A DNA stretch of 64,000 bases from Halomonas sp. (GTDB lineage Bacteria > Pseudomonadota > Gammaproteobacteria > Pseudomonadales > Halomonadaceae): positions 1-64,000 of the forward strand of contig NZ_JAFWFN010000010.1 in assembly GCF_017515565.1 (NCBI RefSeq), read 5' to 3'. This document shows, one piece after another, positions 35,763 to 48,506 of this stretch. Every line of letters begins with the position of its first letter. The stretch's first letter is position 1. The position numbers were made by a program, and so were the translations under genes. Below the pieces are notes generated by a model. The model had not been told where the DNA came from and searched no databases. It was given only the letters and a program-made list of their open reading frames with translations.

Positions 35763-36329
35763 TTATGCCCGAGACACGTAATCACCAGAACGCGTGTCAA
35801 TCTTCAATACTTCACCCTGGTTAATAAATAGGGGGACACGAACCACAGCACCAGATGAAAGCGTCGCAGGCTTAGAGCCGCCTTGCGCCGTATCACCTTT
35901 TAAACCGGGGTCAGTCTCAACGACTTCTAGTTCAATGAAGTTAGGCGGCGTAACGGAAATCGCTTTGTCATTCCACAGCGTAATCGTGTAAGGCACCTGC
36001 TCTTTGAGCCATTTTTCAGTATCGCCCAAGGCTTTCTTTTCCACGGCGTACTGCTCAAAGGAACCGTCGGTCTTCATGAAGTGCCACATGTCACCGTCGG
36101 TGTAGAGGTACTCCATCTCCAAATCCATGACGTCAGCGCCTTCCAGCGAATCACCAGATTTGAAAGTCTTCTCACCGACACGTCCAGTCATCAGGTTACG
36201 CAACTTAACGCGGTTAAAGGCTTGGCCTTTGCCCGGCTTGACCAGTTCGTTCTCAACGATCGAACAGGGGTCGCCGTCGAGCATTACTTTTAAACCGCCC
36301 TTGAATTCATTGGTAGAATAGTTCGCCAT
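35763..36329 (-). CDS. efp: Elongation factor P
   Basis: tRNA-shaped translation factor that relieves stalling at polyproline motifs. It has 188 residues, in three beta-barrel domains. The modified lysine K34 is present in VKPGKGQAF, which agrees with beta-lysylation by the EpmA and EpmB encoded on either side. The C-terminal signature [14 protein letters not shown] is intact. The gap of about 150 bases to epmB holds both promoters; no other feature stands out. Confidence 0.97.
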
Positions 36330-36480
36330 AAATGTCTCTCAATTATCCATGTCAGTTATTTGTTTCAGTATGTGGTGCGCGACGCCATACTTTGCCGCCA
36401 TTGGCCTGGTGATATACCAGTAGCGTTGTAAATGGCGTCGTTAAATAAGTGCGCGCATGATAACCCGAAGGAGGGCTTTT

Positions 36481-37503
36481 TTGCAGGAGAACATCATTAT
36501 CGCCGCTAAGCAGATGCCTGCCCAGGTATCTCTTTCATGGCAGCAGCAGCTTTCCCAAGCGATCCGCGACCCAAATGCGCTTTGCAAACGCCTTGGCTTG
36601 ACCAGCCAGTGGCTGCCCGGCGCGTCTGCTGGACACACGCTGTTTGATATCTGCGTCCCTGAAGCATACCTGGCACGTATCGAGCCAAATAACCCGGCAG
36701 ACCCACTGCTGCGCCAAGTGCTGCCTGTTAGCGATGAAACCCTAACGCCCCAGGGCTACGTATTAGACCCGCTGGAGGAGGCCGAACACCGGCCAGTCAA
36801 AGGGCTTATTCACAAATACGCTAGCCGCGTGCTACTTATTGCAAGCCCTAACTGTGCAATCAACTGCCGCTACTGCTTCAGGCGTCACTTCCCTTATAGC
36901 GATAATTCACCCTCCAGGGCCCAGTGGCAGGAAGCGCTGGATTACTTACGCGCAGATACCTCAATCCATGAAGCAATCCTGTCTGGCGGTGACCCGCTGG
37001 CCGCCAGCGATCGTCAACTGGCATGGCTAGTTGCACAACTCGAAAGCATCCCACACCTAAAACGGCTGCGCATCCATACACGCCTACCGGTGGTGATCCC
37101 CGACCGGGTTGATGATGCCCTGCTTGGCTGGCTTGCGGCGACGCGCTTGCAAAGGGTGGTGGTACTGCATATTAACCACGCCAATGAAATTGACCAACCC
37201 GTGGTCGATGCTTGCGCACGCCTAAAACACGCAGGCGTGACGCTGCTTAACCAAAGCGTTCTACTACGAGGCGTTAACGACAGCGTCGCTGCTCTGGCCG
37301 CCCTTTCTGAGCATCTTTTCGAGGCAGGTATTCTGCCTTACTACCTGCACGTCTTAGACCCGGTGCAGGGCGCTGCGCACTTTGATGTGCCGGACAGCGA
37401 AGCGCGGGAGCTGGTTGCTTATCTTCGCGATCATCTTCCCGGGTTTTTAATGCCCCGCCTGGTGCGTGAAATTCCAGGTAAGGAAAGTAAAACGCCGCTG
37501 TAA
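36481..37503 (+). CDS. epmB: EF-P beta-lysylation protein: lysine 2,3-aminomutase
   Basis: Radical SAM, PLP-dependent aminomutase (YjeK) that makes (R)-beta-lysine for EF-P. It has 340 residues from a TTG at 36481. Cluster cysteines C125, C129 and C132 form CxxxCxxC (CAINCRYCF), followed by RHFPY, SGGDPL and the HANEID/LNQSVLLRGVND blocks, ending in KTPL as in E. coli. The TTG is preferred because AAGGAGGG lies six bases upstream. The ATG at 36457 has no site before it; the ATG at 36514 would trim the N-terminus. EpmC, the hydroxylase, is not in this window. Confidence 0.93.
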   Translation: MQENIIIAAKQMPAQVSLSWQQQLSQAIRDPNALCKRLGLTSQWLPGASAGHTLFDICVPEAYLARIEPNNPADPLLRQVLPVSDETLTPQGYVLDPLEEAEHRPVKGLIHKYASRVLLIASPNCAINCRYCFRRHFPYSDNSPSRAQWQEALDYLRADTSIHEAILSGGDPLAASDRQLAWLVAQLESIPHLKRLRIHTRLPVVIPDRVDDALLGWLAATRLQRVVVLHINHANEIDQPVVDACARLKHAGVTLLNQSVLLRGVNDSVAALAALSEHLFEAGILPYYLHVLDPVQGAAHFDVPDSEARELVAYLRDHLPGFLMPRLVREIPGKESKTPL

Positions 37504-37571
37504 AACCCTCATCCTGGCAAAGCCACGCTAAATGCGATGGCAAGTCTGATGCAGGCACAAAATTGCCTCAC

Positions 37572-37593
37572 AAAAGCGCAATGGGCTTTTTTT
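37572..37593 (+). terminator. Probable terminator after epmB
   Basis: A six-base stem AAAAGC / GCTTTT with a 7-base loop runs into a T7 tract (37587-37593). The stem is weak, but the position, about 70 bases past epmB and ahead of the guanidine operon promoter, fits. Confidence 0.55.
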
Positions 37594-37687
37594 ATGCACA
37601 GAGAAAGGGCATTCAATGACCTGCAGATACTTTAGCAATTACCGAAATCGCACAATAAACAACTAAAAACAAACGTATTTTCTGGAA

Positions 37688-37704
37688 CGGGCTAACATTT
37701 TGCT
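37688..37704 (+). promoter_or_regulatory. Candidate sigma-54 promoter of the guanidine operon
   Basis: GGC and TTGCT are placed so that GG (37690-37691) and GC (37702-37703) are exactly ten bases apart, the -24/-12 spacing of sigma-54 promoters; the bases between GGC and TTGC match the consensus poorly. A start near 37715 would put the whole riboswitch into the transcript. Sigma-54 control would suit a nitrogen-acquisition operon. The match is partial, so this is only a candidate. Confidence 0.3.
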
Positions 37705-37770
37705 TCGTTATCAATGTAACGCACGGGGTATCGGCGGCTTACGCTGCCACACAATTTAGCTTCCAATAGA

Positions 37771-37884
37771 TCGCTAGGGTTCCGACACCGTCAATTTACT
37801 ACCCCTGACAGGTGTGGCTGGTCCGAGAGCAATCGACCTAACGCGAAGGCGCGAGGTTACACGGCGGGACAAAAGCCCGGGAGG
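37771..37884 (+). promoter_or_regulatory. Guanidine-I riboswitch (ykkC leader)
   Basis: All conserved blocks of the guanidine-I aptamer occur in order: CTAGGGTTCCG (37774-37784), a P2 hairpin (ACACC 37785-37789 with GGTGT 37811-37815, extended by GTCA/TGAC), CTGGTCCGAGAG (37818-37829), a P3 hairpin (ACCT/AGGT and CGC/GCG, 37836-37857), then ACACGGCGGGACAAAAGCCC (37859-37878) and GGGAG. The class binds free guanidinium and turns genes on. It stands 58 bases before the binding-protein start. The expression platform is not obvious. A stretch at 37909-37928 is complementary in patches to the aptamer 3' side, and CCCTAGC (37922-37928) pairs fully with GCTAGGG (37773-37779). The Shine-Dalgarno GGAGG follows at 37933, and no U-tract terminator is visible, so translational control is my guess. 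Confidence 0.95.
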
Positions 37885-37942
37885 ATAAGGCACAGTGATG
37901 CGCCGATGCCCCCGAGTTTTCCCCTAGCCGCTGGAGGCTTTT

Positions 37943-39046
37943 ATGATTCGTGCCACGTTTATTTCCCTAAGCCATATACCCTCAAAAAAGCTGCCCATTG
38001 CTCCACTGTCTGCCGCGATGGTGATAGCCGCACTTGCCTCTCCTCTCTCTGTTAGCTCTGCCCAGGCCCAGGAACGCGACGAGTTCAGCGTCTGCTGGTC
38101 GATTTATGCGGGCTGGATGCCCTGGGCCTATGCCGATGTTGAAGGCATAGTCGATAAATGGGCCGACGAGTACGGTATCAGCATTGATGTGGTGCAGGTA
38201 AACGACTACGTCGAGTCAATCAATCAGTTCACCTCTGGCAACGTTGACGGCTGCGCCATGACCAACATGGATGCGCTGACTATTCCGGCCGCCAGCGGCG
38301 TCGACTCCACCGCATTAATCGTTGGCGATTACTCCAACGGCAATGACGGCATTGTCATGAAGAGTAGTGACGACCTTGCCGATATCGAGGGCAGCAAAGT
38401 TAATCTGGTTCAGTTCAGCGTATCGCACTACTTACTCGCTCGCGCGCTTGAGAGCGTCGGTCTAACCGAACGCGACATCGAAACCATTAACACCGCCGAT
38501 GCGGATATTGTTGGACTCTTCACCAGCGAATCAACTGAAGCCGTGACTACCTGGAACCCACAGCTCAGTGCCATCACCGAGATGCCTAACGCAAATGTGG
38601 TCTACACCTCGGCGGAGATTCCCGGTGAAATTCTTGATTTGATGGTCGTCAATACCCAAACCCTCTCCGATAACCCTGAACTTGGTCACGCCCTGGTGGG
38701 CGCGTGGTATGAGGTCATGGAGCTTATGGCCAATAACGACGAGAGCGCACTAACGCTGATGGCTGATGCGGCGGGTACAGATTTAGAGGGTTATCAGAAC
38801 CAATTGGCGGCTACCTACCTATATACCGACCCTGCTGAAGCTATTGAACTAATGGAAAGCCCCAACTTGCTAGATACCATGCAACGGGTCGCCGAGTTTA
38901 GTTTCACCCACGGCCTACTTGGCGATATGGCACCCAATGCAGGTGTCGTCGGCATTGAAACGCCTAGCGGCGTGTTTGGTGATGAGAGCAATGTGCAGCT
39001 GCGCTTCGACCCAAGCTTTACCCAAGCTTACCTCGACGCTCAGTAA
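37943..39046 (+). CDS. Guanidine-operon ABC transporter substrate-binding protein
   Basis: Periplasmic binding protein of the nitrate/taurine (NMT1/TauA-like) type found next to 'urea carboxylase' genes. It has 367 residues: signal peptide about 1-42 (ending AQA), then VCWSIYAGWMPWAYAD, which begins the ligand-binding lobes; the aromatic-rich WSIYAGWMPW stretch is typical of this subfamily. GGAGG at 37933 serves the ATG. It is first in the operon behind the guanidine-I riboswitch. The substrate is inferred to be guanidine or a guanidine-like cation from that context, not from the sequence. A stable hairpin follows the gene. Confidence 0.88.
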   Translation: MIRATFISLSHIPSKKLPIAPLSAAMVIAALASPLSVSSAQAQERDEFSVCWSIYAGWMPWAYADVEGIVDKWADEYGISIDVVQVNDYVESINQFTSGNVDGCAMTNMDALTIPAASGVDSTALIVGDYSNGNDGIVMKSSDDLADIEGSKVNLVQFSVSHYLLARALESVGLTERDIETINTADADIVGLFTSESTEAVTTWNPQLSAITEMPNANVVYTSAEIPGEILDLMVVNTQTLSDNPELGHALVGAWYEVMELMANNDESALTLMADAAGTDLEGYQNQLAATYLYTDPAEAIELMESPNLLDTMQRVAEFSFTHGLLGDMAPNAGVVGIETPSGVFGDESNVQLRFDPSFTQAYLDAQ

Positions 39047-39071
39047 CGGGTTCCTCCTACATCAGCGCGAT

Positions 39072-39093
39072 GGGAGTGGTGCCTGCCACTCCC
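39072..39093 (+). other. Hairpin between binding-protein and permease genes
   Basis: The 8-base perfect stem GGGAGTGG / CCACTCCC with a 6-base loop is followed by a pyrimidine-rich but not T-only stretch. Such hairpins commonly protect or partly terminate the message so that binding protein is made in excess over the membrane components. Confidence 0.6.
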
Positions 39094-39121
39094 TCTGCTC
39101 TCATCTTCTGTGGATACCGCC

Positions 39122-39949
39122 ATGAAGCGACTTATTAACCTTACGCCCTCGCGGGGCGGCCGTTGGCTGTTAGGCCTGCTGCCTTTTTTGCTACTGGCGA
39201 TGCTGTATATGAGCCTCTCCAACGCAAGGCTGGCGGAAAACCCTAACGACCGTTTGTTGCCGACGCCCTCGACCATGGCAAGTACTTTTTACCACTTAGC
39301 CACTGCCGAGAACGTCCGCACCGGGCAAATTGTGCTGTGGACAGACACCTTCGCCAGCCTGGAACGAATTGTGATTGGTGTGGGTATTAGTGCATTGATT
39401 GGTTTAGTGGTGGGCATCTTAAACGGCGGATTGCCTATTGTCCGCGCCAAGCTCTCGCCGCTGGTGACGGTCGCCTCGCTGATTCCCCCCATGGCGATAC
39501 TGCCGATTCTATTTATCGCCTTTGGTACCGGCGAAGCCGCCAAAATTGCCCTGATTGTGATTGGAGTAACGCCGTTTCTTATTCGTGACCTGCAAGGCCA
39601 CGCCCTGCGGCTCCCCGATGAACAGCTGATCAAAGCACAAACCCTAGGCGCCAGCTCCTGGCAGGTGCTGTTAAGGGTGCTACTGCCACAATTAACGCCA
39701 CGACTATTAAACGCCACTCGTTTGGCATTGGGCACTGCCTGGCTTTTTTTAATCGCCGCCGAAGCCATCGCGGCGCAGGAAGGGCTTGGCTACCGCATTT
39801 TTCTAGTGCGTCGTTATCTATCGATGGATGTGATCTTGCCCTATGTGGCCTGGATCACCCTGCTGGCGTTCCTGCTTGACCAACTGCTGGCCTGGGTATC
39901 ACGGCTAGCATTCCCCTGGTACCACGCAGGCGAAGGAGATAACTCATGA
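39122..39949 (+). CDS. Guanidine-operon ABC transporter permease
   Basis: Inner-membrane permease of the SsuC/TauC-like family with six or so transmembrane segments. It has 275 residues. The EAA loop that contacts the ATPase is KAQTLGASSWQVLLRVLLPQ (about 168-187), with the characteristic GA and LP spacing. The membrane segments include LLGLLPFLLLAMLYM, IVIGVGISALIGLVVGIL and SLIPPMAILPILFIAFG. The ATG at 39122 is preferred to a GTG four codons earlier; neither has a strong ribosome site. The end overlaps the ATPase start (ATGA). Confidence 0.9.
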   Translation: MKRLINLTPSRGGRWLLGLLPFLLLAMLYMSLSNARLAENPNDRLLPTPSTMASTFYHLATAENVRTGQIVLWTDTFASLERIVIGVGISALIGLVVGILNGGLPIVRAKLSPLVTVASLIPPMAILPILFIAFGTGEAAKIALIVIGVTPFLIRDLQGHALRLPDEQLIKAQTLGASSWQVLLRVLLPQLTPRLLNATRLALGTAWLFLIAAEAIAAQEGLGYRIFLVRRYLSMDVILPYVAWITLLAFLLDQLLAWVSRLAFPWYHAGEGDNS

Positions 39950-40740
39950 GTCTTCTAGCGGCCAAACGGTTAGAGAAGCACTACGGCAACCATGTAGTTC
40001 TTGAGAATCTTAATTTTAGCGTTGAGCCTGGGGAATTTGTCACTTTGGTGGGCGCCTCTGGCTGTGGCAAAACCACCTTTCTTAAAATGCTGCTGGGTAC
40101 CGAAGCCGTTTCTAAAGGCAGCTTAACGCTGGATGACAAGCCCATTCCCAATGAACCGGGCCCCGACCGCGGCGTGGTATTCCAGAAGTATTCGGTGTTT
40201 CCCCACCTCACGGTGTTAGGCAACGTAATGATCGCCGATGAGCTGAACAGCGCTAAACTGCTGGGCAAAAGCTTTGGTGCTGCCAAACGGCGCGCTATAG
40301 AAAAGGCCCGCGCTCGCATTGATGAGGTGGGCCTTAGTCATGCGCTTAACAAATACCCCCACGAGCTTTCCGGCGGTATGCAGCAGCGCTTAGCCATTGC
40401 CCAAGCGCTGATGATGCGGCCACGCATTTTACTGCTTGATGAGCCCTTCGGCGCCCTAGACCCCGGCATTCGTCAGGATATGCACGAATTAATCACCCGG
40501 CTATGGCAAGAGCAACAGCTAACCATCTTTATGATCACCCACGACCTTAAAGAAGCCTTTGAGCTGGGCACGCGACTGTGGGTATTCGATAAAACCCGCC
40601 ACGACCCTCAGGAACCGGAAGCGTTCGGCGCAACAATCACCTACGACCTGCCTATTTCAAAAGACCGCCCCTCAAAAGACTTACAAGAAGCGCTTTACCA
40701 AGGCGGCCTGCAAACCCACACCCAGGAGACGCTTTTATGA
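39946..40740 (+). CDS. Guanidine-operon ABC transporter ATPase
   Basis: Cytosolic nucleotide-binding subunit. In its 264 residues, Walker A is GASGCGKTT (36-44), the Q-loop glutamine is Q80, the signature is LSGGMQQR (141-148), Walker B is ILLLDEPF (161-168), and the switch histidine lies in MITHD. The D-loop reads GALDPG. It overlaps the permease upstream and the first DUF1989 gene downstream, both by ATGA, so translation of the three is coupled. It probably powers import of guanidine with the two preceding gene products. Confidence 0.92.
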   Translation: MSLLAAKRLEKHYGNHVVLENLNFSVEPGEFVTLVGASGCGKTTFLKMLLGTEAVSKGSLTLDDKPIPNEPGPDRGVVFQKYSVFPHLTVLGNVMIADELNSAKLLGKSFGAAKRRAIEKARARIDEVGLSHALNKYPHELSGGMQQRLAIAQALMMRPRILLLDEPFGALDPGIRQDMHELITRLWQEQQLTIFMITHDLKEAFELGTRLWVFDKTRHDPQEPEAFGATITYDLPISKDRPSKDLQEALYQGGLQTHTQETLL

Positions 40741-41468
40741 CGTTGATGAAAAGCGAAGCGCAATACACCACTCACTTACCTGGTGGGCATCACTGGTCGC
40801 TGCGCCTACGCCGGGGCACCACGCTCACCTTGATGGCTCAAGAAGCTGACAGCAACGTGGGGATGCTCTGCTACAACCCCGAAAACCTGCTGGAACGCTT
40901 AAACCTACCTGACACCTTAAAGTGTCAGCACACCTTTAAACTTACCCAGGGCCACTGCCTTTACTCGGATATGGGACGTATTTTTGCCTCCATCACTCAT
41001 GATGATCTGGGCTGGCACGACAGCGTTGGCGGCAATTTGATGCCCCAGCACCTGCTTAAAAAAGGCTGGCAGCCGGTCAGCTACCAGCAGGCTCACAACG
41101 ACTGGACGCGCACCGGCTTCGATGCCTTTTTAGTAGAGCTTGCCAAGTACGGCCTGGGCCGCCGGGATATAGCCGCCAACCTGAATCTTTTCTCCCGGGT
41201 AGAGAGCGACGATGAGGGCCAACTGCGCTACGTGAGCAGCCATTGCCAACCGGGCAATAGCGTCACGCTGCGCTTTGAGATGGACACGCTGGTGCTGCTG
41301 CACACCTGCCCCCACCCCCTCGACCCCAGCGCCGACTACCCCCGTCGTGGTGTCGACATCGCCCTCGGTACTGCAGAGCCGCCCAGCGAAGATGACCCTT
41401 GCTACCGCTCGCGGCCCGAAAATGCCCGCGGCTTTGCCAACAATCGCCTTTACCACCTCGGCCTATAA
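40737..41468 (+). CDS. DUF1989 protein, UAAP1-like (putative carboxyguanidine deiminase subunit)
   Basis: First of two DUF1989 genes ('urea amidolyase-associated proteins'). In organisms studied, the pair forms a carboxyguanidine deiminase (CgdAB) that turns carboxyguanidine into allophanate with release of ammonia. It has 243 residues. The family core is HDSVGG (94-99), AKYGLGRRDIAANLNLF (136-152), and TCPHPLDP (190-197). Compared with its downstream partner it lacks the cysteines at the matching positions (HDSVGGN instead of [13 protein letters not shown] instead of HSCRDNW), so it probably does not bind metal in the same way. It overlaps the ATPase gene (ATGA). Confidence 0.85.
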   Translation: MTLMKSEAQYTTHLPGGHHWSLRLRRGTTLTLMAQEADSNVGMLCYNPENLLERLNLPDTLKCQHTFKLTQGHCLYSDMGRIFASITHDDLGWHDSVGGNLMPQHLLKKGWQPVSYQQAHNDWTRTGFDAFLVELAKYGLGRRDIAANLNLFSRVESDDEGQLRYVSSHCQPGNSVTLRFEMDTLVLLHTCPHPLDPSADYPRRGVDIALGTAEPPSEDDPCYRSRPENARGFANNRLYHLGL

Positions 41469-41483
41469 GGGGGAACGAACATC

Positions 41484-42122
41484 ATGATTATTGAAAGCAC
41501 CCTACGCCCCGAAAACGCCATAAGCCGCACGACGGTTAACGCGGGCGATCACTACATTGGCACCGTCAAGCGCGGCCAAACCCTGCGTATTCTCGATTTA
41601 GAGGGTAATCAAGCCGCCGACACGCTGTTTTTCAGCGCCGACGATACCGCCGAGCGCTACAGCGCCATGGACACCGTGCGCGAACAAGGCGCGGTTTACC
41701 TCACCGCAGGCACGCCGCTTATATCCAGCGAAGGCCGCACCATGCTGACGATTACCGCTGACACCTGCGGCCGCCACGATACCCTGGGCGGCGCTTGCGC
41801 CAGCGAAAGCAACACCGTGCGCTACGACCTGGAAAAACGCCACATGCACTCCTGCCGAGACAACTGGATGCAGGCAATTGCCAACTATCCAGAGTTTGGA
41901 CTTACCAAGCGCGATATCACCCACAACATCAACTTCTTTATGAACGTGCCGGTTACCGCCGACGGCGGGCTAACCTTTGCAGACGGTATTTCCGCACCAG
42001 GTAAATACGTTGAGATGGTCGCCGAGATGGATGTGATCGTGCTGGTCTCCAACTGCCCCCAGCTCAACAACCCCTGCAACGGCTACAACCCAACGCCTAT
42101 CGAGTTGTTGGTTTGGGAATAA
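41484..42122 (+). CDS. DUF1989 protein, UAAP2-like (putative carboxyguanidine deiminase subunit)
   Basis: Second DUF1989 gene and probable metal-binding partner of the one before it. It has 212 residues with a dense set of possible ligands: C95, H98, C105 ([11 protein letters not shown]), H120, H122, C124 (RHMHSC), and C191/C198 near the C-terminus. [10 protein letters not shown] near 41-50 and [13 protein letters not shown] mark the family. GGGGGAA lies upstream of the ATG. The stop is followed at once by the guanidine-II element, where the tight gene packing of the operon breaks. Deiminase activity is inferred from characterised homologues and context. Confidence 0.87.
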
Positions 42123-42132
42123 GTGATTCGCC

Positions 42133-42177
42133 CTAGGGACGACCCTAGCAGGCCAAGCAACCCGCGGGACGACCCGC
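42133..42177 (+). promoter_or_regulatory. Guanidine-II (mini-ykkC) riboswitch inside the operon
   Basis: Two tandem hairpins carry identical ACGA loops closed by GGG/CCC: CTAGGG-ACGA-CCCTAG (42133-42148) and GCGGG-ACGA-CCCGC (42164-42177), with a 15-base linker. Paired stem-loops with ACGR tetraloops are the whole definition of the guanidine-II class; each loop binds guanidinium and the loops kiss through their CG. It sits between the second DUF1989 gene and the carboxylase start at 42198. GCCT (42176-42179), which shares two bases with the second stem, is complementary to AGGC (42188-42191), the weak ribosome site. Folding of the second hairpin would therefore free that site, as expected of an ON switch. 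Confidence 0.88.
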
Positions 42178-42197
42178 CTTTGTTTGCAGGCAGTGCC

Positions 42198-45100
42198 ATG
42201 TCCATCAATAAAACGTTTAGCAAAGTACTGATTGCCAATCGCGGTGCCATCGCAGCGCGCATTTTACGCACCCTCAAAGCGTTAGGTGTAGGCAGCGTGG
42301 TGGTTTACGCCGACGCTGACCGGGACGCTCCCTACGTTCACCAGGCCGATGAGGCCTATTCCCTAGGCGAAGGCTCGGCAAGTGATACCTACCTTAATAT
42401 CGACAAGCTGATCGCGATTGCCAAACAAAGCGGTGCCCAAGCTGTGCACCCCGGCTACGGCTTTCTGTCAGAGAACACCCGCTTTATTGAAGCCTGCGAT
42501 GCTGCGGGCCTTACCTTTCTGGGCCCCACCGCCGATCAGATTGAACAGTTTGGCCTAAAACACCAGGCCCGCGCCCTGGCCGAAAACGCCGGTGTGCCAC
42601 TGGTGCCCGGTTCCAAACTTCTCGAAAGCGTTAAAGAAGCCCTCACCAGCGCCGAGCAGATTGGCTACCCGGTCATGCTCAAATCCACCGCCGGTGGTGG
42701 TGGTATCGGTATGCAGGTGTGCCAAACTGCCGCCGAGCTAGAGCGTGCCTTTGATTCGGTGAAAGGCTTAGGTGAGCGCAACTTCGGCGACGGCGGCGTG
42801 TTTCTTGAAGCCTATATCGCTCGCGCCCGCCACTTGGAAGTACAGCTGTTTGGCGACGGCCAAGGCAGCGTGGTCGCCCTCGGTGAGCGCGACTGCTCCA
42901 CTCAGCGCCGCCACCAAAAAGTGCTTGAAGAGTGCCCGGCCCCCAACCTGCCTGAATCCGGTCGCCAGGCGCTGCACGCCACGGCGGTTCAGCTGGGTAA
43001 AGCGGTCAACTACCGCAGCGCCGGAACCGTCGAGTTTATTTACGATGCCGAGCGGGAAGCGTTCTATTTTTTAGAGGTCAATACCCGCCTCCAGGTCGAG
43101 CACGGCGTCACCGAGATGGTATATGGCGTCGATATTGTTGAGTGGATGGTTCGCCTGGGTGCAGGCGAACTGCCCGCCCTTGAGACACTCACCAACGGCC
43201 TCACTCCCCGCGGCCATGCCGTACAAGCGCGCCTCTACGCCGAAGATCCCGCCCACGACTTCCGCCCCAGCGCAGGCTTGCTGACGGAGGTCGATTTCCC
43301 CAAGGCTGACGGCCTACGCATCGACCATGCCATTGAAGCCGGGCTGGAAATATCAGCGCTGTTTGACCCTATGCTCGCCAAAGTGATTGTTCACGCCGAC
43401 AGCCGTGGCGCGGCTATCGAACAGCTAGCAGATACCCTGGATAATGCTAGCGTTTATGGTATTACCACCAACCGCACTTGGCTTGCCCATGCGCTGCGCG
43501 CAGAGCGTTTTCGTGATGCCGACCTGGACACTCACTGGCTGACCACCCTGGAGTGGGCACCGCCCGCCATTGAGGTGATCGCCCCCGGCACAATGACGAC
43601 AATTCAAGACTACCCCGGCCGCCAGGGCCACTGGGATGTGGGCGTGCCGCCGTCCGGGCCCTTTGATGACTGGTCGTTTCGTCTTGGCAATCGCTTACTG
43701 GATAACCCCGCCGATGCCGCAGGGCTTGAAATCACCCTAACCGGCCCGACGCTGCGTTTTCACCGCGCCACGCAAATTGTACTGGCGGGTGCCGAGCTTC
43801 CTGCAACGCTGGATGGCGAAGTGGTGGCTTTTTGGCAGGTCATTGATATTCCTGCGGGCGCTACCCTTAGCCTGGGCAAGGCCGCTGCGGGTGCTCGCGC
43901 TTATCTATTAGTGCGTGGCGGCATTGAGTGCCCGCACTATTTAGGCTCGCGCAGCACCTTCACCCTGGGACAGTTTGGCGGCCATGGCGGCCGTGCGCTT
44001 AGAAGCGGCGATATGCTCGATTTACCCGCGCTTGCCGCCACCTACCAAGCGCAGTTGGATGAGGCGTTAATACCTACCTTTGGTCATCAAGCCAGCGGCA
44101 AAACCTGGCAAGTGGCCGTGCTTTACGGCCCCCACGGCGCGCCAGACTTTTTTACCAATGACGATATCGAGCGCTTTTTTGACCACAAATGGGAAGTCCA
44201 CTACAACTCCAGCCGCACCGGCGTTCGGCTGATTGGGCCGCGTCCCGAGTGGGCCCGGGCCGACGGCGGCGAGGCGGGACTGCACCCCTCCAACATTCAC
44301 GATAACGCCTATGCCTTCGGCACTATCGACTTTACCGGCGATATGCCGGTGATTCTTGGCCCCGACGGCCCTTCGCTAGGTGGTTTTGTCTGCCCGGCCA
44401 CCGTGGTGCGCGCTGAGCGCTGGAAGCTTGGTCAACTCGCCGCGGGCGATAAAGTGCGCTTTGTGCCGGTCAGCCTTGCTACAGCCCGCAGCCTGGAAGA
44501 GCGCCAGCTCGCTCAGTTGGAGTCCCTGACCGCGAACCCTGTTGAAGATATTCAGCCAGAACGCGACACCCCAATCCTGCGCGATGTAGCCGCCGAACAG
44601 GCCGGTGAGCGCATCGTTTACCGCCGCGCCGGGGATGATTTCCTGCTGATTGAGTTTGGTGCGATGGAGCTGGATATCGCGCTGCGCTTCCGCGTTCACG
44701 CCTGGATGCTATGGTTACAGGAACACTCGCTGCCCGGCCTACGGGAACTAACCCCCGGCATTCGCTCGCTGCAGGTTCACTACGAACCGCTGGAGCTTAG
44801 CCTTGATGCTTTGCTAGCGCACCTTCACAAAGCTGAGCAGGCGCTGGTCGATGTGGAGTCGCTGGAAGTTGAGTCGCGAGTGGTGCATCTACCGCTCTCC
44901 TGGGACGACCCCGCCTGCCACGAAGCGATCGATAAATACCAACGCAGCGTGCGTCCGGATGCGCCCTGGTGCCCGAGCAACCTCGACTTTATTCGCCGCA
45001 TCAACGCCCTGGCAAGCGAACAGCAAGTGCGCGATATCGTCTTTGATGCCCGCTACCTGGTCATGGGTCTGGGAGACGTTTATCTGGGCGCCCCAGTGGC

Positions 45101-45812
45101 CACACCGCTAGATCCGCGCCAGCGCTTGGTCACCACCAAATACAACCCGGCCCGCACCTGGACCGCGGAAAACTCCGTGGGCATCGGCGGTGCCTATCTA
45201 TGCGTTTACGGCATGGAAGGCCCCGGCGGCTATCAGTTTGTTGGTCGCACGCTGCAAATGTGGAACCGCTACCGCACCACCCAGCACTTCGAGAACCCTT
45301 GGCTGCTGCGCTTTTTTGATCAGCTGCGCTTTTATCAAGTCAGCCACGACGAGCTGGAGCAAATTCGCCGCGACTTTCCCCACGGTCGTTTCGAGCTGCC
45401 CACCGAAACAGCCCACTTTCGTCTGGCGGACTACCAAGCCGACATCGACAAAAACGCCGATGCCATCGAAACCTTCCGCACCAAGCGCGAAGCCGCCTTC
45501 CAGGCAGAGATGGCCGCTTGGCGAGCCAATGGCCAGTTCACCTTTGAGGATCAAGCACCTAATAGCGCGGAAATCGAAACCTTAGGCGACGATGAAATCG
45601 GTATCGAAAGCCCGGTAACCGGCAGCCTTTGGAAACTGCTGGTCAAAGAAGGCGAGCATGTTAGCGCTGGTCAGCCGGTGGCGCTGGTCGAATCCATGAA
45701 AATGGAGGTAGATGTAACCGCTCACTGCGCGGGTCGCGTTGCCAGGCTTCCGATTAGCGAAGGGGCGTCAATGGGGCCTGGGCAGCCGCTGGTGGTGCTC
45801 ACCAGTGAGTAA
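42198..45812 (+). CDS. Biotin-dependent guanidine carboxylase (annotated in databases as urea carboxylase)
   Basis: Single-chain carboxylase of 1204 residues. The biotin carboxylase part (about 1-455) has VLIANRGAIAARILRTLK, HPGYGFLSEN, a glycine-rich ATP loop (GGGGIGM) and EVNTRLQVEHGVTE. The carboxyltransferase part is of the KipA/KipI (AHS2 then AHS1) type (about 470-1080), including SVGIGGAYLCVYGMEGPGG around 993-1011. The biotinyl domain at the end has K1168 in ESMKMEVD. It hydrolyses ATP to carboxylate its substrate. The two guanidine riboswitches and the DUF1989 pair point to guanidine rather than urea. The ATG at 42198 is chosen; a GTG at 42123 would translate through the riboswitch. 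The ribosome site is weak (CAGG), which suits riboswitch control. Confidence 0.93.
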   Translation: MSINKTFSKVLIANRGAIAARILRTLKALGVGSVVVYADADRDAPYVHQADEAYSLGEGSASDTYLNIDKLIAIAKQSGAQAVHPGYGFLSENTRFIEACDAAGLTFLGPTADQIEQFGLKHQARALAENAGVPLVPGSKLLESVKEALTSAEQIGYPVMLKSTAGGGGIGMQVCQTAAELERAFDSVKGLGERNFGDGGVFLEAYIARARHLEVQLFGDGQGSVVALGERDCSTQRRHQKVLEECPAPNLPESGRQALHATAVQLGKAVNYRSAGTVEFIYDAEREAFYFLEVNTRLQVEHGVTEMVYGVDIVEWMVRLGAGELPALETLTNGLTPRGHAVQARLYAEDPAHDFRPSAGLLTEVDFPKADGLRIDHAIEAGLEISALFDPMLAKVIVHADSRGAAIEQLADTLDNASVYGITTNRTWLAHALRAERFRDADLDTHWLTTLEWAPPAIEVIAPGTMTTIQDYPGRQGHWDVGVPPSGPFDDWSFRLGNRLLDNPADAAGLEITLTGPTLRFHRATQIVLAGAELPATLDGEVVAFWQVIDIPAGATLSLGKAAAGARAYLLVRGGIECPHYLGSRSTFTLGQFGGHGGRALRSGDMLDLPALAATYQAQLDEALIPTFGHQASGKTWQVAVLYGPHGAPDFFTNDDIERFFDHKWEVHYNSSRTGVRLIGPRPEWARADGGEAGLHPSNIHDNAYAFGTIDFTGDMPVILGPDGPSLGGFVCPATVVRAERWKLGQLAAGDKVRFVPVSLATARSLEERQLAQLESLTANPVEDIQPERDTPILRDVAAEQAGERIVYRRAGDDFLLIEFGAMELDIALRFRVHAWMLWLQEHSLPGLRELTPGIRSLQVHYEPLELSLDALLAHLHKAEQALVDVESLEVESRVVHLPLSWDDPACHEAIDKYQRSVRPDAPWCPSNLDFIRRINALASEQQVRDIVFDARYLVMGLGDVYLGAPVATPLDPRQRLVTTKYNPARTWTAENSVGIGGAYLCVYGMEGPGGYQFVGRTLQMWNRYRTTQHFENPWLLRFFDQLRFYQVSHDELEQIRRDFPHGRFELPTETAHFRLADYQADIDKNADAIETFRTKREAAFQAEMAAWRANGQFTFEDQAPNSAEIETLGDDEIGIESPVTGSLWKLLVKEGEHVSAGQPVALVESMKMEVDVTAHCAGRVARLPISEGASMGPGQPLVVLTSE

Positions 45813-45882
45813 AGAACCGATAAGCCAGCTCACAGCGTATTTTTCATCTTCGGTCACGGTCGATAACGATAGGAATTAAGTC

Positions 45883-47706
45883 ATGACACCACCTTTACCA
45901 CTCGACATCAAAAGCCTTCATACCGCCTACCAGCAGGGTGAACTCACCCCTGCAGCATTAATCGACCAGCTACTCGCACAAGCTGAAAGTCACGGTAAAG
46001 AGCCTGCTTGGATTACCCGCCTGAGTCGCGAGCAGTTGGCGAGCTATTTGAAACGTCTGGAAGGCGAGACGCCGGAAACCCTGCCGCTTTATGGTATTCC
46101 ATTTGCGATGAAGGACAATATTGACCTCGCAGGGATACCCACCACCGCAGGCAGCCCGGCCTATGCTTACACGCCCACGGAAAATGCTTTTGTAGTGCAG
46201 CAGTTGATCGATGCGGGCGCGATTCCCATGGGTAAAACCAACCTGGATCAGTTCGCGACCGGGTTAGTAGGCGAGCGGGCACTGGAAGTGTATGGTACGC
46301 CTGCTAATGCTTTTGACCCGACGCTGGTGCCAGGCGGCTCCAGCAGCGGCTCTGCTGTGGTCACTGCGGCCGGCATGGTCAGCTTTGCGCTGGGCACCGA
46401 TACCGCCGGCTCAGGCCGCGTGCCCGCCTGCTTTCACAACTTGTACGGGGTTAAACCCAGCCTGGGGCTGCTTAGCACCCGGGGCGTGGTTCCCGCCTGC
46501 GCCACTTTGGATACCATCAGCCTATTTGCGCTTACCGCTGACGATGGTGCCAAAGTGCTAAATGTTACCGCTGCCTACGATGACCAATGTGCCTGGTCGC
46601 GCCAACATGATTTTGCGGTACATGGCAAACGCTACAGCAAAGCACCCGCCGCGTTTCGATTTGGGGTGCCATTAGAATCCCAGTGGCAAACCGACGCGGC
46701 CTATACCCAAGGCATGCAACAAGCGATTGCGGAGCTGGAAGCCTTGGGGGGTGAAAAGGTCGAGCTGGACTGTTCGCCATTACTGGCGGCAGCGCGTTTA
46801 CTTTATGAAGGCCCCTGGGTGGCCGAACGCTACCATGTGATTCGTGAGCTGATGGAGAGCAACCCGGATGCGGTACACCCGGTGACTTTTCAAATCACCC
46901 AGGGTGGCGCAACGCCCTTGGCGGTAGACGCCTTCGATGCGCGCTATAAACTCGCCGAGTATAAGCGCCAGTCCGACGCACTAATCAGTCAGGTAGATGT
47001 GATGCTCACGCCTACCACGGTCACGCATCCGAGCAAGGCCGAGGTAGCGGCGGATCCTATTGGCGTTAACTCCCGCCTAGGCACCTGGACCAACTTTATG
47101 AACCTGCTCGACTACAGCGCCCTGGCCGTACCGGTGGGCTTTAGCGAGCGCGAACTGCCGGTGGGCGTTACGCTATTCGGACCAGTATTTGCAGACTTAA
47201 CGCTGCTCTCCCTTGCCCGTGCCCTGGAAGCACGCCTGATGCTGCCGCTAGGCGCGACCGGCATTCCACACCCGCCGTTAGCGGAACTCCTCGCGCATGC
47301 ACTGGATGGCAGCATGGAGCTGGTGGTATGCGGTGCGCACTTAAAAGGCCTGCCGCTAAACCACCAGTTAACTCAGCGGGGCGGTGTATTGGTGAGCACC
47401 ACCCACAGCGCCCCGCGTTATAAGCTATTTGCCCTGGCAGGCGGGCCGCCCAAACGCCCGGCAATGCTACGTGATGAGAACGGTCAAGCCATTGAGGTAG
47501 AAGTGTGGCGTCTGCCTATCGAGACCCTGGGTAGCTTCTTGGCGGGCATACCCGCCCCGCTTGGCTTAGGCCAGGTAGAGCTTGCCGACGGCAGCTGGAA
47601 GTGCGGTTTTATCTGCACCGCAGGGGCGCTGAACGAAGGCGGTGAAGCTGCGGACATTACTGAGTTTGGCGGCTGGAGGGGGTGGCTGGCGAACCAATCT
47701 GAGTGA
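45883..47706 (+). CDS. atzF: Allophanate hydrolase
   Basis: Cleaves allophanate to ammonia and carbon dioxide, the final step of the pathway. It has 607 residues. The N-terminal amidase-signature domain carries the triad K77, S153 (GGSSSGS) and S177 (GTDTAGS). The C-terminal domain of about 150 residues is the one that removes N-carboxylate in AtzF-type enzymes (FICTAGALNEGGEAADITEFGGWR at the end). AGGAA lies eight bases before the ATG. It is the last gene of the guanidine operon, 70 bases after the carboxylase, and is followed by a terminator. Confidence 0.95.
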   Translation: MTPPLPLDIKSLHTAYQQGELTPAALIDQLLAQAESHGKEPAWITRLSREQLASYLKRLEGETPETLPLYGIPFAMKDNIDLAGIPTTAGSPAYAYTPTENAFVVQQLIDAGAIPMGKTNLDQFATGLVGERALEVYGTPANAFDPTLVPGGSSSGSAVVTAAGMVSFALGTDTAGSGRVPACFHNLYGVKPSLGLLSTRGVVPACATLDTISLFALTADDGAKVLNVTAAYDDQCAWSRQHDFAVHGKRYSKAPAAFRFGVPLESQWQTDAAYTQGMQQAIAELEALGGEKVELDCSPLLAAARLLYEGPWVAERYHVIRELMESNPDAVHPVTFQITQGGATPLAVDAFDARYKLAEYKRQSDALISQVDVMLTPTTVTHPSKAEVAADPIGVNSRLGTWTNFMNLLDYSALAVPVGFSERELPVGVTLFGPVFADLTLLSLARALEARLMLPLGATGIPHPPLAELLAHALDGSMELVVCGAHLKGLPLNHQLTQRGGVLVSTTHSAPRYKLFALAGGPPKRPAMLRDENGQAIEVEVWRLPIETLGSFLAGIPAPLGLGQVELADGSWKCGFICTAGALNEGGEAADITEFGGWRGWLANQSE

Positions 47707-47715
47707 TGTTAAGAG

Positions 47716-47754
47716 AGGCCCAGATGCATGAGAGACATTGCGGATGGGCCTTTT
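47716..47754 (+). terminator. Terminator of the guanidine operon
   Basis: Arms AGGCCCA / TGGGCCT enclose an inner imperfect stem and are followed by TTTT. It lies 10 bases past the allophanate hydrolase stop. An A-run follows on the plus strand. Confidence 0.75.
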
Positions 47755-47801
47755 AAAAAAAACAGATGGTTAGGCTGCGTTTGACGACGGAAATTTGATG
47801 C

Positions 47802-48188
47802 TTATATTTTTCTAATCGGGCCTGGATATTGAGCCACCAGCTCATCCGCAGTAAGCAATAAAAACCCCTCAGCTTCTGCCTGGGCCACCAAAATTCGATC
47901 AAAGGGATCTTTGTGAATACTAGGTAAATGAGCAACGTTAAGTGTATGCAGTGAACTGATAGGGAGCTCTAAATAGCCATTATCCATCAACCCTCTTCGC
48001 AACAAGTGAGGATCCACGTGAAAATCATGGCGTTGCAGGCTGTTTTTGATCACCACCTCCCAGATGCTGGCAGCGCTAAAATAGAGTCTGTTGTTATCAT
48101 CGTTAATCAAAGATAACGCTTCAGCAGATAACTTCTCTGGCTCTAACGCCGCCCAGAGCAAAATATGTGTGTCCAGAAGCAGATTCAC
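47802..48188 (-). CDS. PIN-domain toxin (VapC family)
   Basis: Probable ribonuclease toxin of a type II toxin-antitoxin pair. It has 128 residues from a GTG at 48188. The PIN-domain acidic residues are D6 (NLLLDTHILLWA), E44 (SIWEVVIK), D97 (DPFDRIL) and D115 (TADE). The GTG is preferred because GGAGG lies five bases upstream and the protein then opens with the usual MNLLLDTH; an ATG four codons earlier overlaps the antitoxin stop. The RNA target cannot be predicted. Base composition looks more A/T-rich than its neighbours, in keeping with a mobile module. Confidence 0.9.
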   Translation of the reverse strand: MNLLLDTHILLWAALEPEKLSAEALSLINDDNNRLYFSAASIWEVVIKNSLQRHDFHVDPHLLRRGLMDNGYLELPISSLHTLNVAHLPSIHKDPFDRILVAQAEAEGFLLLTADELVAQYPGPIRKI

Positions 48189-48189
48189 G

Positions 48190-48429
48190 TCAGCCTCCAA
48201 ACATCTCGGCTATTTCTTTCTGCCCCATCCGATCAAAGTCATCAGGTACTTTAAACTGGCCTGCCAGGAAACCTAGTCGCTTCTGCTGACCAGGTGCAGG
48301 GCTGTCAATGGCCGTCACACGTGCCATCGGTTTACCTGCTTTGGCAATGATAAACCCCTCCCCCTCGGCAGCCCTTGCGACCAACTGCGACAAGCGCGTT
48401 TTAGCTTCATGAATATTGATAGCTTCCAT
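48190..48429 (-). CDS. Phd/YefM-family antitoxin
   Basis: A 79-residue partner of the PIN toxin. The N-terminal Phd/YefM DNA-binding fold is clear (INIHEAKTRLSQLVARAAEG, then IAKAGKPMARVTAI). The C-terminal 35 residues (FKVPDDFDRMGQKEIAEMFGG region) would wrap and block the toxin. Such antitoxins repress their own operon together with the toxin. The stop is two bases before the toxin GTG. The upstream gap to 48507 is short and should hold the promoter and operator. Confidence 0.9.
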   Translation of the reverse strand: MEAINIHEAKTRLSQLVARAAEGEGFIIAKAGKPMARVTAIDSPAPGQQKRLGFLAGQFKVPDDFDRMGQKEIAEMFGG

Positions 48430-48506
48430 CTGCCCTCCTAAAACACAACCTAGTTTACTGAGCTTAGTTTAGCCTAGATACACCTTTATTCAACTTGCCT
48501 TCCTTT

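Follow-up and report, generated by a model that had tools for sequence, protein, structure and literature searches.

Two guanidine riboswitch classes downstream of a predicted NtrC/sigma-54-type promoter in a guanidine carboxylase operon of Halomonas

We analyzed a 64,000-nucleotide (nt) stretch of Halomonas sp. DNA (positions 1 to 64,000 of contig NZ_JAFWFN010000010.1, assembly GCF_017515565.1; "the window" below), in which a collinear operon encodes an importer, the carboxyguanidine deiminase subunits CgdA and CgdB, a guanidine carboxylase (gca) and an allophanate hydrolase (atzF), with a guanidine-I riboswitch at its head and a guanidine-II riboswitch directly before gca. We are fairly confident that the operon serves guanidine-nitrogen assimilation, belongs to the published guanidine carboxylase type and is under three ON controls acting in series. 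In the proposed working, a predicted NtrC/sigma-54-type promoter would start transcription at nitrogen shortage; guanidine on the guanidine-I aptamer would then prevent its strand AAAAGCCCGGGAG from joining an intrinsic terminator, so that RNA polymerase could proceed into the importer genes and cgdAB; and guanidine-bound guanidine-II hairpins would finally open the gca ribosome-binding site, so that the large ATP-dependent carboxylase would be made only with ligand in the cell. The two-class pair is real but already published in close relatives, and the window locus is a further member of that group. The promoter layer, and the pattern in which gca is either tightly coupled to cgdB or preceded by a riboswitch, are our additions, not found in print in the literature searched.

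The RNA elements of the operon are as follows:
37763..37885, + strand: guanidine-I riboswitch aptamer (cmscan RF00442, 81.3 bits, cut-off 63, E 6.6e-13, full-length model 1-107).
37871..37920, + strand: intrinsic terminator hairpin and U run, with 5' arm AAAAGCCCGGGAGG at 37871-37884 and 3' arm CCCCCGAGUUUU at 37909-37920.
42131..42177, + strand: guanidine-II riboswitch, two ACGA-loop hairpins (cmscan RF01068, 43.0 bits, cut-off 32, E 3.2e-05, full-length model 1-48).
42176..42191, + strand: candidate masking pairing of GCCU (42176-42179) with AGGC of the gca ribosome-binding site (42188-42191), read from the sequence.

The Rfam cmscan of the whole window gave exactly two matches above the gathering cut-off, those to RF00442 and RF01068, both on the + strand and each unique in the 3.76 Mb assembly (97.6% complete, 86 contigs), while a permissive scan of 36000-48500 yielded nothing extra beyond one sub-threshold gut-2 match. 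An initial annotation of this DNA had claimed both classes, at coordinates within 8 nt of ours, and had placed these structurally unrelated sensors at the head of one operon and directly before the carboxylase gene. This description holds, including the implied gene order, and RF01068, whose significance had been singled out for checking, scores well above its cut-off.

Curated protein models give the order of the operon:
37943..39046, + strand: periplasmic binding protein of an ABC importer (NCBIfam TIGR03427, 494.9 bits).
39110..39949, + strand (start as listed for the open reading frame, provisional): importer permease (best models of TauC/SsuC type, below cut-offs).
39946..40740, + strand: importer ATPase (NtrCD/TauB-type models, below cut-offs).
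40737..41468, + strand: cgdA, carboxyguanidine deiminase subunit, UAAP1 (TIGR03425, 296.6 bits; Pfam DUF1989; name as in PMC12508155).
41484..42122, + strand: cgdB, carboxyguanidine deiminase subunit, UAAP2 (TIGR03424, 334.4 bits; Pfam DUF1989).
42198..45812, + strand: gca, guanidine carboxylase of 1204 residues, with ATG at 42198 and Asp711 (TIGR02712, 1800 bits).
45883..47706, + strand: atzF, allophanate hydrolase, 70 nt after gca (TIGR02713, 729.7 bits).

The identity of the carboxylase follows from its specificity position, Asp711 (in IDFTGD), which aligns to Asn 1330 of chain 5i8i, a solved urea amidolyase. As an Asp at this position marks guanidine carboxylases and an Asn urea carboxylases (PMC12186494), the locus is a guanidine carboxylase operon, and the parts of such an operon, namely carboxylase, CgdA/B, allophanate hydrolase and importer, are all present. 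For mgdH and mgdL, no match was found in the window or in the genome, where the searches had no positive control. After the operon, on the - strand at 47802-48200, lies a gene for a PIN-domain protein (PF01850, 48.6 bits), a VapC-like toxin by appearance.

The pair is widely kept among relatives. In a survey of 275 genomes of the family, guanidine-I was found in 53 and guanidine-II in 95, and in 50 of the 53 guanidine-II lies 4196-4705 nt downstream of guanidine-I on the same strand. The remaining three differ from one another: in G250 a contig break separates the two (566 nt lie between guanidine-I and an end of its contig, and guanidine-II is 167 nt into a different one), in G139 two ACGA hairpins can be seen by eye before gca but are not reported by cmscan at gathering, and in G017 there is no gca motif within 8 kb. 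In a sample of 293 genomes of the order (three of them shared with the family sample; matches counted at E <= 0.001 and in part below the Rfam cut-off), 77 carry guanidine-I. A same-strand guanidine-II no more than 12 kb away accompanies it in 47 of the 77, spread over 18 of the 25 families having guanidine-I. The two aptamers mostly lie either near 3.0 kb or near 4.2-4.5 kb apart, a division that points to operons with different sets of importer genes.

We also considered 63 of 65 named carboxylase loci (two matched by 60 residues only were dropped). Guanidine-II precedes gca in 38 of them, including loci from Sulfurimonas, Sulfurospirillum and Comamonadaceae; 37 were recognized by the hairpin pattern and L067 by cmscan. 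When 14 of the 38 were run through cmscan, 10 were above the cut-off and L079, L081, L086 and L094 were not. Guanidine-I is also found upstream in 37 of the 38, the last one (L109) having only 233 nt of upstream DNA, and eight named loci have guanidine-I upstream without guanidine-II. An alignment of guanidine-II (38 rows, the window and 37 others, 33 distinct) contains 96.1% standard pairs, with changes to both partners in 8 of 11 pairs. Its covariation score is 0.523, whereas shuffles give 0.155 and slid controls at most 0.197. The initial annotation had asked whether close relatives keep the hairpins and the pair; they do. Three guanidine riboswitches in line were seen in the Burkholderiales loci L082, L098 and L107. 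Guanidine-I heads these loci, guanidine-II precedes gca, and a further guanidine-I follows gca or atzF, ahead of another ABC-type binding protein gene. By pattern L081 shows this arrangement too, although its guanidine-II does not exceed the Rfam cut-off. In L061 (Vreelandella glaciei), about 1.9-7.9 kb after the end of gca, a gene block stands between mgdL and atzF; by eye it resembles genes for a GntR-type regulator and an ABC importer of the oligopeptide type.

The guanidine-I element appears to fit the transcription-ON scheme described for its class (PMC12186494). By sequence and folding, the conserved 3' strand of the aptamer (37871-37884) doubles as the 5' arm of the terminator, whose U run lies at 37917-37920 and whose hairpin ends 22 nt before the first start codon; ligand binding would thus decide which of the two structures forms. 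A similar terminator sharing the aptamer 3' strand is found in 22 of the 28 readable family loci (29 tried). The leader stretch between the predicted transcription start and the aptamer (37715-37775, ACGGGGTATCGGC...GCTGCC) looks strongly conserved in Vreelandella/Halomonas loci and possibly forms a hairpin.

Ahead of guanidine-I, at about 37564-37704, we predict an NtrC/sigma-54-type promoter with the following parts:
37564..37580, + strand: predicted NtrC-like dimer site 1, of TGCAC-N7-GTGCA type, with 3/10 mismatches (sequence match).
37595..37611, + strand: predicted NtrC-like dimer site 2, 14 nt past site 1, with 1/10 mismatches (sequence match).
37689..37704, + strand: sigma-54-like -24/-12 element, GG-N10-GC kept, 8/11 consensus positions, in register with family loci.

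The sigma-54 part was scored against GG-N10-GC with TGGCAC-N5-TTGCW (11 positions). From the order, 50 of 89 guanidine-I matches were chosen by score and variety, none from the family of the window, and 45 of these had readable upstream DNA. An element of at least 9/11 was found in 35 of the 45 loci, with 27 of the 36 matches placed 60-99 nt ahead of the aptamer core. In shuffles 1.01 loci qualified on average and never more than 4, and on the reverse strand 2 did. Within the family, 25 of 29 loci (29 of the 53) have an element of at least 8/11 in register, compared to 0.77 in shuffles.

For the activator sites, TGCAC/GTGCA half-sites were screened for spacer length; a spacer of 7 was enriched in one orientation and a spacer of 14 in the opposite one, which is what two NtrC dimers about 31 base pairs apart would give, going by the NtrC consensus and the layout of NtrC sites at glnA. 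Two-site arrays with at most 6/20 mismatches occur in 53 of 94 loci, against 2.8% of shuffles. The array of the window, with 4/20 mismatches, has its two centres at about -143 and -112 relative to the predicted start, a position with which most family loci agree. It is the only + strand array with at most 4/20 mismatches in the 64 kb (its palindrome gives the - strand one), and this level was reached by 2 of 2000 dinucleotide shuffles of 330 nt. As the spacers came from the data, the criteria were fixed and then applied to 28 held-out guanidine-I loci, drawn from further orders of the class, of which 7 were dropped due to unreadable upstream DNA. Among the 21 held-out loci, the sigma-54 element was in register in 14 (0.1 in shuffles) and the array was present in 13 (0.55 in shuffles), at a varying distance from each other. 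Ten control loci, in which guanidine-II precedes genes for exporters of the SMR kind, had arrays with 7 or more mismatches at best, and their sigma-54 scores did not exceed 8. A pattern scan of 37450-37763 found no sigma-70 promoter match for the operon on the + strand, and RpoN and NtrC are both encoded in the genome, above curated cut-offs. COG3665 we take to be the DUF1989/CgdA-B family. A published prediction of the sigma-54 regulon of Proteobacteria contains 102 COG3665 genes, 59% of them named urea carboxylase (PMC12316311).

Several points that speak against this promoter, or against its reading as nitrogen control, should be considered. The sigma-54 element of the window is weak (8/11) and stronger in relatives, and there are other matches, one of 9/11 out of register at 37538-37553 and two of 7/11 inside cgdB, at 41966 and 42028. 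No element was found in 10 of the 45 order loci, in any of the four named Campylobacterota loci read, or in L105, L067 and L071. The spacers of the NtrC-like sites were picked after the data had been screened, and outside the family the distance from these sites to the sigma-54 element varies. In addition, the published V. boliviensis proteome (PMC12508155) used an ammonium-grown control, with which an effect of nitrogen control cannot be told from one of missing guanidine.

The second riboswitch is placed where it could control translation of gca: its first hairpin begins 8 nt past the cgdB stop and its second ends 20 nt ahead of the gca start. The candidate GCCU/AGGC pairing has two bases in common with the second hairpin, an overlap of a kind comparable to one suggested for guanidine-II by Huang et al. 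(PMC5486947). Computed folds, however, do not show the ribosome site as masked in the ligand-free state, which counts against the proposed third step. Accessibility was nearly equal in unconstrained, bound-like and weakened-P2 folds of the window, and when P2 was forbidden, mainly a local hairpin across the gca ribosome site formed. Many Vreelandella/Halomonas loci show, by eye, an alternative pairing between CCUGC in the 5' arm of P2 and GCAGG, which has a mismatch in the window. As the folds fail to show masking, translational gating rests on the known behaviour of the class and on position, by which guanidine-II plausibly gates gca only.

Two other ways for this region to act were considered and rejected. 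The pattern scan flagged the second hairpin (42164-42177, then CTTTGTTT) as an intrinsic terminator, but its U run is interrupted and the region holds 9 such sites against 11.2 in shuffles. An in-frame GTG at 42123, after the cgdB stop, could allow ribosomes to read through into gca; this frame is open in the window, L061, L063 and L064 and is not among the candidates in L062, L066, L109 and L117, and we attribute it to chance.

Further evidence on the junction comes from 55 named loci with cgdB upstream, for which distances run as far as the beginning of the tblastn match (in three, at close to 880 nt, another gene probably intervenes). With guanidine-II, the gap between cgdB and gca is at least 70 nt in 38 of 38 loci, whereas in the 17 loci without it the two genes overlap or lie close, at 20 nt or less in 16 of 17 and at 49 nt in one. 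The wider gap does not prove function of the riboswitch, because the element itself needs room. At the level of sequence, the comparison nonetheless shows what appears to be tight cgdB-gca coupling as the alternative to guanidine-II. Three loci, L062, L074 and L120, have in common a sequence (GGATGGGTTCACAGCGTTTTCGCG...) between cgdB and guanidine-II that is absent from other Vreelandella loci; the gap is 247 nt in L062 and 196 nt in L074.

The closest described system is that of V. boliviensis LC1 (Sinn et al. 2025, PMC12508155). As in the window, the LC1 operon has guanidine-I at its head, an ABC importer, cgdA/B, guanidine-II directly before gca, and atzF, and the same transcriptional and translational control is proposed. 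Unlike the window genome, where neither was found, LC1 has mgdH and mgdL between gca and atzF. Its guanidine-I binds guanidine with an apparent dissociation constant (KD) of 44 uM and ignores methylguanidine, its guanidine-II binds guanidine and methylguanidine with KDs of 93 and 83 uM, and the operon proteins are strongly induced on guanidine. Sinn et al. cite Nelson et al. 2017 for the same layout in several other bacteria, and leave the reason for reading one ligand twice as a subject for further study. A 2025 review (PMC12186494) describes the layout in Raoultella, Erwinia and Klebsiella, where, as here, importer and carboxyguanidine deaminase genes go with guanidine-I and carboxylase and allophanate hydrolase genes directly downstream go with guanidine-II; those systems differ in being enterobacterial. 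The combination, which the initial annotation had taken to be previously undescribed, was thus already in print. Its proposal, that guanidine is taken up and tested for ahead of synthesis of the costly enzyme, finds no direct support, since in V. boliviensis the two KDs for guanidine differ only about twofold and guanidine-II binds methylguanidine equally well (PMC12508155).

Guanidine-II also occurs alone in the family, as a single switch before an SMR exporter gene rather than before catabolic genes. The ten solitary loci read (L033-L037, L039, L040, L042, L050 and L052) precede SMR-like genes of 105-109 residues, and both of the exporter genes tested match PF00893. With one guanidine-II only, the window genome therefore seems to be without a riboswitch-controlled exporter of this kind. 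As for the promoter, the survey of PMC12316311 likewise predicts sigma-54 control of COG3665, but its available text does not contain the word guanidine and no link to guanidine riboswitches was seen there; that of PMC12508155 uses "promoter" once (the T7 promoter) and NtrC never. Literature searches, in which subscription journals are poorly covered, returned no paper on point among the matches listed for guanidine riboswitches with NtrC, RpoN or sigma-54, nothing for guanidine riboswitch, carboxylase and translational coupling together, and only matches off the point for two riboswitches for one ligand in one operon, all of which is weak evidence of absence.

Other explanations of the pair must be weighed against serial control. 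Guanidine-II might mainly widen the ligand range, gca being raised also when methylguanidine is the nitrogen source. The binding data of V. boliviensis and the presence of mgdH in 12 of 38 loci with guanidine-II, against 0 of 25 without it, are in line with this. Relaxed binding is, however, a property of the guanidine-II class, for which a structure with methylguanidine exists (PMC5486947), and 26 of the 38 loci (DNA fetched) have no mgdH, so that we reject the methylguanidine tie as the main reason. Neither mgdH nor mgdL was found in the window genome, in searches that had no positive control, and methylguanidine alone could not open the operon, because guanidine-I stands at its head. We thus regard this explanation as unlikely.

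It is also rather improbable that guanidine-II, gca and atzF are transcribed separately, from a promoter of their own within cgdB, in which case the two switches would not share a transcript. The weak sigma-54-like matches in cgdB would allow it, and the enterobacterial genes are described as two sets under two switches (PMC12186494). The single transcript assumed in the initial annotation is nevertheless favored by the tight gene spacing across the operon, by a pattern scan of 41484-42130 that found no + strand sigma-70-like or terminator-like site, and by the operons without guanidine-II, in which cgdB and gca overlap or nearly do so. Guanidine-II could, lastly, be an effectless leftover, with guanidine-I as sole control: folding does not reveal the masking pairing, the bases of which are by eye not conserved across genera, and in 4 of the 14 cmscanned loci the element, found there by pattern, fell below the Rfam cut-off. 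Against this stand its retention in 50 of 53 family genomes and its strong covariation, by which we consider a leftover highly improbable.

We return to serial control as the preferred explanation. For Gammaproteobacteria at large we lean, with more reserve than for the window operon, towards a three-step gate in which NtrC/sigma-54 would report nitrogen hunger, guanidine-I would act at elongation, and guanidine-II, replacing tight cgdB-gca coupling, would act at gca translation in response to guanidine and methylguanidine. Both switches would then stand below nitrogen control, and the exporters that have guanidine-II only and no promoter signal would detoxify whatever the nitrogen state.

The pair itself is of modest interest, which the replicated sequence evidence for nitrogen control raises somewhat. 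On the promoter evidence, a decision on nitrogen status would come before either RNA switch acts. The same evidence points to a division between guanidine use, gated by nitrogen, and guanidine export, which lacks that gate. In the operon described here, the cell thus likely makes three checks in series: for nitrogen hunger, for guanidine and for guanidine again.

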